Part shown: piece after piece, positions 54,132-58,852 of the stretch
How positions within the stretch are numbered: position 1 is the first letter of the stretch
How the letters are laid out: each line of letters opens with the position of its first letter
NCBI GenBank assembly: GCA_947629925.1
Contig: CANRFO010000005.1
Coordinates: 62,001 to 126,000 of the forward strand
Length of the DNA: 64,000 nucleotides
Reading direction: 5' to 3'
DNA from: an uncultured Ruminiclostridium sp.
GTDB taxonomy: Bacteria > Bacillota > Clostridia > Oscillospirales > Ruminococcaceae
Made by a program: the position numbers and the translations under genes
The notes under the pieces: model-generated
Told to the model about the DNA's origin: nothing
What the model saw: the letters and a program-made list of their open reading frames with translations, nothing else
The model's database searches: none

Positions 54132-55208
54132 TTAACAAAGAAAAGACATCAAAGCGATATTCATAACTGCTTCTACGCATGGAACCGCTCTTGGAACTAC
54201 ACAAGGGTCGTGCCTGCCTTTTATTTCAATAACTGCATTTTCTTTTTTTATGAAATCAACAGTATTCTGAGGGCGTGCAATAGAAGGAGTAGGCTTAAAC
54301 GCCGCGCGGAAAATAACAGGCATACCGTTTGAAATACCGCCGAGGATTCCACCTGCGTTATTTGTTCTTGTTTTTATCGTGTCGTTTTCAACATAGAATT
54401 CATCATTATTTTCACTGCCTTTAAGAAGAGATGAAGAAAAACCTGTACCGAATTCTATACCTTTAACGGCGGGAATCCCAAAAATAAGCTGTGCAATACG
54501 GTTTTCAATGCCGTCAAATATTGGGTCTCCAATTCCACAAGGAAATTCGACAGCACCACATTCAATAATTCCGCCTACTGAATCAAGATTTTCACGCGCA
54601 TTACTGATTATTCTTCTCATCTTTTCATCTGCCGTTTCATCAACGAGCGGCAAATATCTGCTTTTTACCTTTTTTAGCAGTTCGGCGTTCAGAGTAATGT
54701 CATTAAATGGCGTATCTTTTTCACAGCCGATAGAATATATGTGCGCTCCGGTTGTTATACCGCGTTTTTCCAGAATTTGCCCGCATACTGCTCCTGCAAA
54801 AACCAAAGGAGCGGTAAGGCGTCCTGAAAAATGACCGCCGCCTCTTTGGTCGTTTGCTCCTTTATATCTTACATATCCTGTATAATCGGCATGCCCGGGC
54901 CTTGCAATTCCTGATATATTCTTATAGTCATTTGAGTGCTGGTCGCTATTTTTAATGACCGCACACAATGCCTCTCCTGTTGTTTTGCCATTGTAAAAAC
55001 CACTTATTATATGAGGTGTATCGGTTTCATTACGCATAGTACTTGTGCCGTCTTTTTTGGGGGCGCGTCGAGCCATAAATTCAAGTATTTTATCTAAATC
55101 AAGCTCTTCACCTGACGGAAGATTATCTATCACCACGCCTATTGTAGGACCGTGCGATTCTCCGAATACGGAAATTGACATATTCCCCAGTTTAATCGTA
55201 GATGACAT
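54132..55208 (-). CDS. aroC: Chorismate synthase
   Basis: GNMSISVFGESHGPTIGVVIDNLPSG; RPGHADYTGYVRYKGANDQRGGGHFSGRLTA; GISNGMPV. Confidence 0.97.
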   Translation of the reverse strand: MSSTIKLGNMSISVFGESHGPTIGVVIDNLPSGEELDLDKILEFMARRAPKKDGTSTMRNETDTPHIISGFYNGKTTGEALCAVIKNSDQHSNDYKNISGIARPGHADYTGYVRYKGANDQRGGGHFSGRLTAPLVFAGAVCGQILEKRGITTGAHIYSIGCEKDTPFNDITLNAELLKKVKSRYLPLVDETADEKMRRIISNARENLDSVGGIIECGAVEFPCGIGDPIFDGIENRIAQLIFGIPAVKGIEFGTGFSSSLLKGSENNDEFYVENDTIKTRTNNAGGILGGISNGMPVIFRAAFKPTPSIARPQNTVDFIKKENAVIEIKGRHDPCVVPRAVPCVEAVMNIALMSFLC

Positions 55209-56409
55209 ATGTTTTTCCTCCGAGAGCTTCAAAATCTTCAAAAAATCTTGGGTAAGATTTGCTTACACATTCAGCGCCGATTATTATAACAGGCTCGGTC
55301 GCCCTTGTAGAAGCGATTGCAAGCGACATAGCGATTCTGTGATCCACATGAGCATCGCAAATGCCGCCGTGTAAAGAGGTCACCCCCTCAATTGTAAGAC
55401 TGTCGCTGTTTTCGGTTATTTTTGCTCCGAGCTTGTTCAGCTCCGAAGCAGTTACAGCGAGCCTGTCACATTCTTTGAGCCTTAGCCTGCCGCAGTTGGT
55501 TATATGTGATATGCCTTTTGAGAATGTTGCAAGGACCGCAAGTATCGGAACGATATCGGGGATTTGCGAAGCGTCGACATCAAAAGCGTTTCCTTTTGCC
55601 TGAGAGACTATATCAAGTATAGCTTTATCGCCTTGAATACTGTTCGGATTAAGACCCTCTATATCAATATCAGAACCGATTGCATTTGCTACGACATAAA
55701 ACGCCGCATTTGACATATCGGCTTCAACAAAAGTATCGCATGCTTTATACTGTTGATTGCCTGGAATAAAATAACCATAGTCCGTTTTTTCGGCAATCAC
55801 GCCGAAGTCGCTGAGAGCTTTTACTGTTATATCGACATACGATTCAGACTGTAAAGGTGTTGTAATAATTATTTTACTGTCGCCGTCAAGAAGAGGAAGA
55901 GCAAACAGCAGCCCGCTTATAAACTGTGAAGAAATATCCCCCGCAATTGTATATGTTCCTGATTGAAGCTTTCCTGAAAATTTATACGGCATTTTTTCAG
56001 TTTCAAATGTTATTCCTTTTTTTGAGAGTTCAGTAAAATAAGGCGTTATAGGCCTTTCAGGAAGCTTTGCCCTGCCTGTGAACACGGAATTGCAGCCAAG
56101 CGCAGCGGCGACAGGAATAAGGAATCTAAGTGTAGAACCGCTTTCAAAACAGTCTGCATAAATGTTTTTTTCTACTTCGGATATTCCTTCAACAACAGTA
56201 TCTGAACCTTTTTTTGTTATTTTTGTGCCCATAGCGGTTAAAATTCCGATAGTGGCAGACGTATCGTCGCACTCAAGCAGATTTTTTATTACCGAAGTGC
56301 CTTTTGCCAATGCTGAACATATCAGCATACGATGGGAAATATTTTTTGCGGACGGAACAAGAACTTTGCCTGACAGCAAAGAGGGCGTTATCCTAATATT
56401 TTTCTTCAT
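55192..56409 (-). CDS. aroA: 5-enolpyruvylshikimate-3-phosphate synthase
   Basis: LVPSAKNISHRMLICSAL; ESGSTLRFLIPVAAALG; LRLKECDRLAVTASEL; VDHRIAMSLAIAS. Confidence 0.97.
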   Translation of the reverse strand: MKKNIRITPSLLSGKVLVPSAKNISHRMLICSALAKGTSVIKNLLECDDTSATIGILTAMGTKITKKGSDTVVEGISEVEKNIYADCFESGSTLRFLIPVAAALGCNSVFTGRAKLPERPITPYFTELSKKGITFETEKMPYKFSGKLQSGTYTIAGDISSQFISGLLFALPLLDGDSKIIITTPLQSESYVDITVKALSDFGVIAEKTDYGYFIPGNQQYKACDTFVEADMSNAAFYVVANAIGSDIDIEGLNPNSIQGDKAILDIVSQAKGNAFDVDASQIPDIVPILAVLATFSKGISHITNCGRLRLKECDRLAVTASELNKLGAKITENSDSLTIEGVTSLHGGICDAHVDHRIAMSLAIASTRATEPVIIIGAECVSKSYPRFFEDFEALGGKTYVIYD

Positions 56410-57458
56410 ATAAACTCCAAAAATTTTCTGTATTCGTTAAGCGTCAATGTTTTTATAATGCATTTTCCCACATCAGTGCAAAGAATTATCCTTATAGTAT
56501 CAGATGTGCGTTTTTTGTCTTCAATTGACAGAGAATATAGCTTATCGGCTGAAATGTCAATAGAACAGGGCAGGGAATTGACATTAAGGCATTTTTTCAG
56601 TTTTTCTGCTGTTCCTGAATTTATCAATCCCTGTTTTTCAGCAGAGTTTGTTATAAGATACATTCCTATTGCGACGGCTTTTCCGTGAGATATTTTCCCA
56701 TATCCGATATATTTTTCAATAGCATGTCCGAATGTGTGACCGAAATTAAGTATCATTCTTTCGCCTGTGTCATGCTCATCTACTTCCACAACATCTCGTT
56801 TTATACTTATACATTCGGTTATTATATCTTCCAACATATCGTGTGCATTTTCTTGGCAAAGCTTATTAAATAAGGATTTTGAACGTATCATACCGTATTT
56901 GATAACTTCGCCCATTCCGTCGGCAAAAATTTCATCTGATAGCGTGGAAAGGACATCTGTGTCTGCAATTACAAGAACAGGCTGTTTAAAAGCACCTACA
57001 AGGTTTTTCCCCGCATCAATGTTTACAGCTGTTTTTCCTCCTACCGAGCTGTCCACCTGAGCAAGGAGCGTAGTGGGAATTTGGACGTAATCGATCCCGC
57101 GAAGATAAGACGCAGCGCAAAATCCTGTAAGATCGCCTACAACGCCTCCTCCGAGCGCTATTATAAAGTCCGAACGTGTTATGTCATTTTCTGAAAGAAA
57201 ATTATAAATTTTAATAAGCTGTTCATGAGATTTTGAAGTTTCACCATTAGGCACCACAAATTTCACAACGTTAAAGCCTGAGCTTTCAAGGCGTTGAACA
57301 ACATTATAGCCATAAAGATCATTAACGATATCGTCTGTGACAATGGCGCATTTATGTGATTTTACAATCGGCTTTATAAGCTCACCGCACTTATTGAGCA
57401 AGCCTTTTCCCACAAGAATGTCATAGCTTGTACTTGCGTTTATGGTTATCTTTTTCAT
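56406..57458 (-). CDS. aroB: 3-dehydroquinate synthase
   Basis: ALGGGVVGDLTGFCAASYLRGIDYVQIPTTLLAQVDSSVGGKTAVN; LNFGHTFGHAIE. Confidence 0.97.
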   Translation of the reverse strand: MKKITINASTSYDILVGKGLLNKCGELIKPIVKSHKCAIVTDDIVNDLYGYNVVQRLESSGFNVVKFVVPNGETSKSHEQLIKIYNFLSENDITRSDFIIALGGGVVGDLTGFCAASYLRGIDYVQIPTTLLAQVDSSVGGKTAVNIDAGKNLVGAFKQPVLVIADTDVLSTLSDEIFADGMGEVIKYGMIRSKSLFNKLCQENAHDMLEDIITECISIKRDVVEVDEHDTGERMILNFGHTFGHAIEKYIGYGKISHGKAVAIGMYLITNSAEKQGLINSGTAEKLKKCLNVNSLPCSIDISADKLYSLSIEDKKRTSDTIRIILCTDVGKCIIKTLTLNEYRKFLEFI

Positions 57459-58477
57459 GCCAGAGTACCGACTTTCTTGCCCAGTACGGAAGCAATCTGA
57501 TTGCACTTGTCCATACAGCTTGAAAAATGTTTTGGTGTAAGTGACTGAGCGCCGTCGCATAGCGCTTTCTGAGGATTATTGTGAACTTCTATGATAAGTC
57601 CGTCTGCTCCTGCTGCGACTGCAGCCATAGACATAGGCTCAACAAGCTCATATTTACCTGTAGCATGGCTTGGGTCAACAATTATCGGAAGATGAGTAAG
57701 AGATTTAAGTACAGGAATTGCTGAAATGTCCAGAGTATTTCTTGTTTGGGTTTCAAATGTTCTTATGCCTCTTTCACATAGAATTATGTTTGTATTTCCA
57801 CCTGCAAATATGTATTCGGCAGACATAAGAAGCTCTTCAATTGTATTTGCGAGACCACGTTTAAGTAAAATAGGTTTTTTGCATTTGCCGAGCTCTTTAA
57901 GCATTTCAAAATTCTGCATGTTTCTTGCGCCTACCTGAATTATATCGACGTCATCAAAGAGATCAAGATGCGCAAGGGACATAAGCTCAGTAACGATTGG
58001 GAGCCCTGTGGCTTTCTTTGCTTTCAGAAACAGTTTAAGCCCCTCATCTCTAAGACCCTGGAAAGAATAGGGAGAAGTTCTGGGCTTGAACGCTCCGCCA
58101 CGGAGAAAGTTTGCGCCTGCCGCTTTTACCTGCATACATGTATCCACGATCTGTTCCTCATTCTCTATTGAGCAGGGACCAGCAATAACAGCTACATTAC
58201 CGTCACCTATCAAAGAGCCGCTTGCGTTTATTACAGTGTCTTCAGGGTGAAATTTTCTGTTGACTCCCTTATACGGCTCTTGAACACGCTGTACGGATTC
58301 AACTATTTCTTGAGCTTCAATAGCTTCCATGTCTACTTTATGGGTATCGCCGATAAGTCCGAGGATAGTGGTATGAGCGCCTTTTACCTCGTTAATCCTG
58401 ATATTTTGCGCTTCAAGATTTCTGCAAAGCTCATCAACTTCGTTTTTGGGCGCTCCGTTTTTAAGAATAATAATCAT
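57455..58477 (-). CDS. aroF: 3-deoxy-7-phosphoheptulonate (DAHP) synthase with N-terminal regulatory extension
   Basis: VAVIAGPCSIENEEQIVDTCMQVKAAGANFLRGGAFKPRTSPYSFQGL; PIIVDPSHATGKYELVEPM. Confidence 0.97.
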   Translation of the reverse strand: MIIILKNGAPKNEVDELCRNLEAQNIRINEVKGAHTTILGLIGDTHKVDMEAIEAQEIVESVQRVQEPYKGVNRKFHPEDTVINASGSLIGDGNVAVIAGPCSIENEEQIVDTCMQVKAAGANFLRGGAFKPRTSPYSFQGLRDEGLKLFLKAKKATGLPIVTELMSLAHLDLFDDVDIIQVGARNMQNFEMLKELGKCKKPILLKRGLANTIEELLMSAEYIFAGGNTNIILCERGIRTFETQTRNTLDISAIPVLKSLTHLPIIVDPSHATGKYELVEPMSMAAVAAGADGLIIEVHNNPQKALCDGAQSLTPKHFSSCMDKCNQIASVLGKKVGTLA

Positions 58478-58514
58478 TATTTATAATCCTTTCTTTTTTA
58501 TTTATTTTATAAAC

Positions 58515-58542
58515 AAAAAACCTGCACCGTTGAGATGCAGGT
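58515..58542 (-). terminator. Intrinsic terminator (attenuator) between leader peptide and aroF
   Basis: ACCTGCATCTCAACGGTGCAGGTTTTTTG on minus strand, 27 nt before aroF operon 5' end region. Confidence 0.85.
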
Positions 58543-58576
58543 CATAAGCCCGTGATAAAACACGTCACATTATCCT

Positions 58577-58681
58577 TTACACCGCAACTTTATTTTTGGC
58601 ACAGAGAAAATACTTGTAGCTAAAGTAAAAGCCCAAGCTGCTAAACCAAAATATAAAAGAAACGGTAAACAGGTTTAACAT
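58577..58681 (-). CDS. Aromatic-amino-acid leader peptide (34 aa) of aro operon attenuator
   Basis: MLNLFTVSFIFWFSSLGFYFSYKYFLCAKNKVAV*: 7 Phe, 3 Tyr, 1 Trp; GGAG 6 nt upstream of ATG; upstream of terminator and aroF. Confidence 0.82.
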   Translation of the reverse strand: MLNLFTVSFIFWFSSLGFYFSYKYFLCAKNKVAV

Positions 58682-58722
58682 AACATACTCCGAAAAACAT
58701 AACATTAAATTCATATGTTATT

Positions 58723-58751
58723 ATTTTACCTCAGTAAAATGTATTTGTCAA
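58723..58751 (-). promoter_or_regulatory. Sigma70-type promoter of the aro operon leader
   Basis: TTGACA-17 nt-TAAAAT on minus strand, 42 nt upstream of leader ATG. Confidence 0.8.
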
Positions 58752-58852
58752 GTACTGAATGATAAAAAATAAAAAAATTAAAAAAGGGGTTGATTTTTCT
58801 TTATCGTTATGATATAATATAAAAGCTGTGACAAAACAGCTGAATAAAAATT

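Follow-up and report, generated by a model that had tools for sequence, protein, structure and literature searches.

The window analysed here, 64,000 nucleotides of DNA from an uncultured Ruminiclostridium sp., carries on its minus strand the genes aroF, aroB, aroA, and aroC, in this order. The gene aroF (57455..58477) encodes DAHP synthase (TIGR01361, 401 bits; NF006421, 498 bits) and would be the first gene under the control described below. It is followed by aroB (3-dehydroquinate synthase, 56406..57560; TIGR01357, 362 bits), whose true start probably lies downstream of the listed ATG, by aroA (3-phosphoshikimate 1-carboxyvinyltransferase, i.e., EPSP synthase, 55192..56409; TIGR01356, 353 bits), and by aroC (chorismate synthase, 54132..55241; NF003793, 392 bits). 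Gene order and profile matches agree with an earlier note on this DNA, which had placed a terminator before aroF-aroB-aroA-aroC.

Reading along the minus strand, the four genes are preceded by a promoter, a Shine-Dalgarno (SD) sequence, a 34-codon open reading frame (ORF), and a terminator. The promoter is of the sigma-70 type (TTGACA-N17-TAAAAT, 58751-58723) and matches the consensus at 11 of 12 positions, with the -35 element TTGACA at 58751-58746, the -10 element TAAAAT at 58728-58723, and a spacer of 17 nt. The SD sequence GGAG (58691-58688) lies 6 nt 5' of the ATG of the leader ORF, MLNLFTVSFIFWFSSLGFYFSYKYFLCAKNKVAV* (58681-58577), whose 34 codons include 7 for Phe, 3 for Tyr, and 1 for Trp. 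Between this ORF and aroF lies an intrinsic terminator (58543-58519), after which comes a T run. All of these elements, including the 11 aromatic residues, had been claimed by the earlier note, and all of them are present.

Most relatives for which upstream DNA was read carry TTGACA and a -10 element resembling TAAAAT or TACAAT before the leader, and most have GGAG or GAGG in the position matching the SD sequence. Scanning both strands of 1.8 kb returned five terminator-like sites, the leader terminator being one of them, compared with 1.4 expected. Of 200 dinucleotide shuffles, none folds as well as the leader RNA (z -4.1). A second in-frame ATG is found 5' of the leader start (MNLMLCFSEYV-M..., window positions 58714-58681, minus strand), close to where transcription is predicted to begin; the closest relatives lack it, and it probably goes unused.

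RNA folding, which the earlier note had put forward as a check, gave a classic attenuator fold. In the RNAalifold consensus, the FIFWF codons pair with the AKNK codons of the same ORF (the 1:2, or protector, stem), and the terminator forms as well. The 5' arm of the 1:2 stem is segment 1 (codons S-F-I-F-W-F, 58645..58658), and its 3' arm, placed by RNAalifold and pair counts, is the first part of segment 2 (codons A-K-N-K, 58588..58600). Over ten leaders, 129 of 130 cells of this 13-pair stem are paired, compared with 41-65% for slid controls, and its covariation score was equalled by 2 of 500 shuffles. One species (G003) has UUCCGG in place of UUUUGG, which turns Trp into Arg, together with CCGGAG in place of CCAAAA, so that two U-A pairs are now C-G; judging by the sequence, the RNA stem is kept here at the expense of the Trp codon. 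The 1:2 stem can account for the near-invariant nucleotides of the F-I-F-W-F codons. Its loop contains an inner hairpin, GCUUGGGCU / AGCUACAAGU (58612..58638), whose pairs in the RNAalifold consensus are mostly invariant.

The terminator consists of segment 3 (ACCUGCAUC, 58534..58542), which is its 5' arm and also the partner of the antiterminator, and segment 4 (GGUGCAGGU plus the U-run, 58514..58528), which is its 3' arm. Segment 3 was delimited by the terminator scan and pair counts, and segment 4 by the sequence, the terminator scan, and pairing. Paired cells make up 97.8% of the total, A-U is replaced by G-C in 4 of 10 species, and the covariation score exceeds that of all 500 shuffles.

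The antiterminator 5' arm, delimited by folding and conservation, is the second part of segment 2 (GUUGCGGUGUA, 58578..58588) and overlaps the leader stop codon. Folding prefers a register in which GUUG-C-GGUGUA, ending in the stop codon, pairs with UGCAUC-U-CAAC. In the core of this register (GGUGUA/UGCAUC plus the flanking G-C), 67 of 70 cells are paired (95.7%), compared with 21-54% for slid controls. The earlier note had UGCGGU pairing with ACC-U-GCA, for which 55 of 60 cells are paired. Its proposal that a segment at the leader stop pairs with the terminator 5' arm is matched by a conserved pairing, but the register is probably a different, overlapping one, with which the proposed register possibly competes as an alternative. 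Among the genus leaders, antiterminator covariation was not above shuffles in either register, and this arm therefore rests on conservation and folding. Of the attenuator hairpins, the note had named the terminator and the antiterminator and had overlooked the 1:2 stem.

To follow the device within the genus, we used a sample of 71 genomes, 12 of which (the source genome included) have an aroF at least 80% identical to that of the window. The leader and terminator are present in all 12, although these carriers are related and not independent. In 10 of the 12, the leader lies upstream of aroF with no recognised intervening gene; two of these 10 (G063 and G003) have extra DNA between terminator and aroF, amounting to about 200 or more additional bases (L090 and L091). 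The insert at L090 contains inverted-looking repeats, ACTTGTTCTCATAG / CTATGAGAACAAGT, and resembles a small mobile element. In the other two carriers (G020 and G037), the leader and terminator lie about 1 kb upstream, and a methyltransferase-like gene stands between terminator and aroF, so that the device heads an operon and not aroF alone. Going by its position, this SAM-methyltransferase-like gene (L120 and L125) would belong to the regulated operon.

The comparison of upstream regions, another of the checks suggested, shows conserved aromatic codons and a covarying terminator and 1:2 hairpin. Specifically, codons 9, 11, 13, 18, 19, 20, 24, and 25 are aromatic in 10 of 10 distinct genus leaders, with exchanges between Phe and Tyr at codons 18, 20, and 25. 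In three species (G019, G063, and G003), codon 30 is the last of the leader, whose stop lies four codons before that of the window's own leader; the antiterminator segment is retained at the RNA level, directly 3' of the earlier stop. Such retention beyond a shifted stop is expected if the pairing, and not the peptide, is under selection.

Among genus members without such an aroF, we inspected two loose pattern matches with 1-2 mismatches (L121 and L112) and found no leader-terminator-aro arrangement at either; in this search, a reversed control pattern matches about equally often. A second group of genomes of the same genus (L093-L110) has a DAHP synthase that is 59-64% identical, and upstream of it we found neither an aromatic leader with a terminator nor a T-box at the gathering threshold. 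In many further members of the genus, no match to aroF was obtained.

Beyond the genus, distant aroF homologues were fetched by sequence, and a leader was defined as an SD-led ORF with at least 20% aromatic residues and an adjoining terminator. An aromatic leader is found at 25 of 37 distant aroF loci with a nearby terminator, compared with 1.6 expected from dinucleotide shuffles. Cultured carriers of such leaders before aroF include Emergencia timonensis SN18 (L035) and Candidatus Soleaferrea massiliensis AP7 (L037). A separate sample of the order comprised 159 genomes and yielded 105 usable aroF loci; a terminator lies no more than 200 nt away from 66 of them, and none was found near the other 39. 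A Phe/Tyr-rich leader is present at 57 of these 66 terminator-bearing loci, compared with 3.4 expected, and three aromatic residues in a row occur in 51 order leaders, compared with 0.9 expected; because simple criteria were used for aromatic content, SD sequences, and terminators, all of these counts are approximate. The shuffles are the sole chance control, many of the genomes are metagenome assemblies, and the automatic rule may take a wrong ORF as the leader at a few loci (e.g., L180 and L205). According to the family labels of the survey, the order leaders are drawn from at least 15 families. As examples such as MTKNFAFAYFYFYFYFGK (L166) and MKNLMFAAFEYFYFYFYFYFTSKNRVKQFVLQTF (L212) illustrate, their sequences differ and their codon class is common.

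The composition of the leaders bears on which amino acids are sensed. In the 57 order leaders, which were picked for aromatic richness, Phe makes up 18%, Tyr 12%, and Trp 0.3% of residues; Phe occurs in 57 of 57, Tyr in 56 of 57, and Trp in 4 of 57. In a set chosen by SD and position alone, genus members included, Phe ranks first (13.9%) and Tyr third (10.2%), and Trp stands at 1.4%. The single Trp of the genus leaders is lost in one species (G003). Moreover, trpE in the source genome is directly preceded by a T-box (L173, G000:C2:103758-104049; E 6e-20), which scores 91.4 bits, slightly under the Rfam cut-off of 93 bits, and whose specifier, judged by eye in the alignment, appears to be UGG. 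A search for an aromatic leader at the genome's pheA and tyrA found none. The earlier note had proposed that the leader senses total aromatic charging. Since Trp is rare in the leaders and trpE has a T-box of its own, we replace this proposal with one in which the signal is most likely the charging of Phe and Tyr tRNAs. This suggests a division of labour between a T-box (Trp, at trpE) and a leader peptide (Phe/Tyr).

Altogether, the leader is very probably a ribosome-mediated transcription attenuator that senses the charging of tRNA-Phe and tRNA-Tyr and controls aroF-aroB-aroA-aroC. Ribosome-mediated attenuation, as first proposed in the earlier note, is supported by the leader anatomy and its conserved aromatic codons, the compensatory changes in the 1:2 stem and the 3:4 terminator, the conserved 2:3 antiterminator pairing, and the order-wide recurrence, all of which come from computation. 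From these we infer that the leader is translated, that ribosomes stall within it, that transcripts of two lengths arise, and that their balance responds to Phe and Tyr.

The proposed course of events is as follows. Transcription would start near 58716, and a ribosome would trail RNA polymerase through the leader ORF. With ample Phe- and Tyr-tRNA, the ribosome would get to the stop codon and cover segment 2; segments 3 and 4 would then form the terminator, and transcription would stop before aroF. When Phe- or Tyr-tRNA is scarce, the ribosome would stall within the FIFWF...FYF-YKYF codons, blocking the 1:2 stem, and segment 2 at the stop would pair with segment 3 while segment 4 has yet to be transcribed. 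With 2:3 paired, the polymerase would continue into the aro genes. If the leader is not translated, 1:2 and 3:4 would both form, making off the default state.

To illustrate this logic, we folded the leader with a ribosome footprint set on each codon and the terminator 3' arm not yet made. In the window's own leader, the terminator 5' arm is predicted to be paired upstream with a probability of about 0.82 for a stall on every aromatic codon, a value that falls to about 0.3 when the ribosome occupies any position from codon 31 to the stop. The model thus reproduces the attenuation logic, and the masking of the antiterminator by a ribosome at the stop, an earlier suggestion, is seen in the simulation. 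For the order leaders, the mean is 0.78 for stall compared with 0.39 for stop, with stall exceeding stop in 54 of 57; at the last core codon, the value is 0.79, compared with 0.58 with shuffled spacers. At equilibrium, the full terminator usually wins, a stalled ribosome notwithstanding, and the choice made by the switch would therefore be kinetic, during transcription.

Two other explanations start from the peptide. The FIFWFS..FYFS peptide might respond to a free aromatic amino acid by arresting its own ribosome, in the manner of TnaC and Trp, and the strong conservation of the genus peptide, including the non-aromatic I10, L16, and K23, fits such nascent-peptide arrest. However, the core nucleotides pair in the 1:2 stem and the inner hairpin, which can explain this conservation; Trp is replaced by Arg in one species with compensation in the RNA; and across the order, Phe/Tyr richness alone is conserved, not the peptide sequence. 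We regard arrest as very unlikely. Slightly less likely still is a small hydrophobic protein with a function of its own, whose transcript the terminator merely ends while aroF uses another promoter. The peptide is indeed hydrophobic, and the additional DNA between terminator and aroF in G063 and G003 would suit this explanation, but the order-wide turnover of the sequence leaves Phe/Tyr richness, placement relative to the terminator, and the RNA alternatives in place, the RNA segment is retained where the stop has moved, and no Rfam or NCBIfam match was obtained.

T-boxes usually serve amino acid gene control in Firmicutes, and the source genome has seven T-box candidates, so that a T-box or another tRNA- or metabolite-binding leader RNA might be looked for here. 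Rfam searches of the leader returned no T-box, phe leader, or trp leader at the gathering threshold, and nothing meaningful at E<=5; an NCBIfam search with the leader peptide gave no match. The T-box leader model (RF00230) was accordingly rejected for the aroF leader, as no covariance-model match was obtained there and the seven candidates lie elsewhere in the same genome. Since the structure is moreover made from the ORF itself, this explanation is extremely improbable.

Returning to ribosome-mediated attenuation, we consider it likely that a Phe+Tyr leader is the standard control of aroF across the order, with a T-box for Trp at trpE, and that the peptides turn over while codon class and switch persist. 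If true, two different tRNA-charging sensors split the aromatic pathway, in bacteria that also use T-boxes.

The E. coli attenuators pheL/pheM and trpL combine leader codons, alternative 1:2, 2:3, and 3:4 hairpins, and a terminator. Their logic, summarised in PMC11802643, is shared with the present leader; unlike it, they belong to Proteobacteria, and their targets are pheA, pheST, and trp instead of the common pathway. Closer in target is aroR of C. glutamicum, a leader with Phe-Tyr-Phe that controls the aroF operon (Neshat et al. 2014, as summarised in PMC11802643; PMC4046766) and, according to that summary, responds to Phe limitation, Tyr availability being without effect. As described there, aroR resembles the present leader in being a Phe/Tyr leader peptide that attenuates a DAHP synthase operon, whereas it comes from an Actinobacterium with a Phe-Tyr-Phe core, and the present leaders have many more Phe/Tyr codons and span an order of Clostridia. 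Another counterpart, uORFC-13-1 (PMC8632094), known from prediction alone, is a uORF with at least one Phe codon and an intrinsic terminator, found exclusively upstream of aroF in 24 sequences, from Acholeplasma and unknown environmental organisms only; by its description, it parallels the present Phe-containing uORF and terminator before aroF.

In 2010, leader-peptide attenuation was regarded as known only from Proteobacteria and Actinobacteria until the Firmicutes his case (PMC2965389). The his leaders of bacilli (PMC2965389) and the ilv-leu leader of S. aureus (PMC5794164) are, like the present series, cases of ribosome-mediated attenuation from low-GC Gram-positives, in which one might rather look for a T-box; they concern other amino acids and other lineages. 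We searched the literature, most subscription journals being outside its reach, for this device in Oscillospirales or Clostridia and came across no description of it. The kind of device is already known, and the present member and its breadth appear to be new; since other organisms have known or predicted attenuators of DAHP synthase (aroR, uORFC-13-1), the present series is a new, widespread case of a known kind. Its presence at most of the aroF loci with a terminator would explain how a major clostridial order gates the shikimate pathway, and dozens of short genes that lack annotation would gain a function.

The series would also be a natural one in which to study how a codon-based sensor evolves under drift of the peptide sequence. 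A C-terminal ...CC motif (FCCENPES, LCCANREED, LCCLKAKM) is common to several lineages (L018, L020, L034, L039, L015, and L025), and it may reflect conservation of an RNA segment close to the stop instead of a peptide motif.
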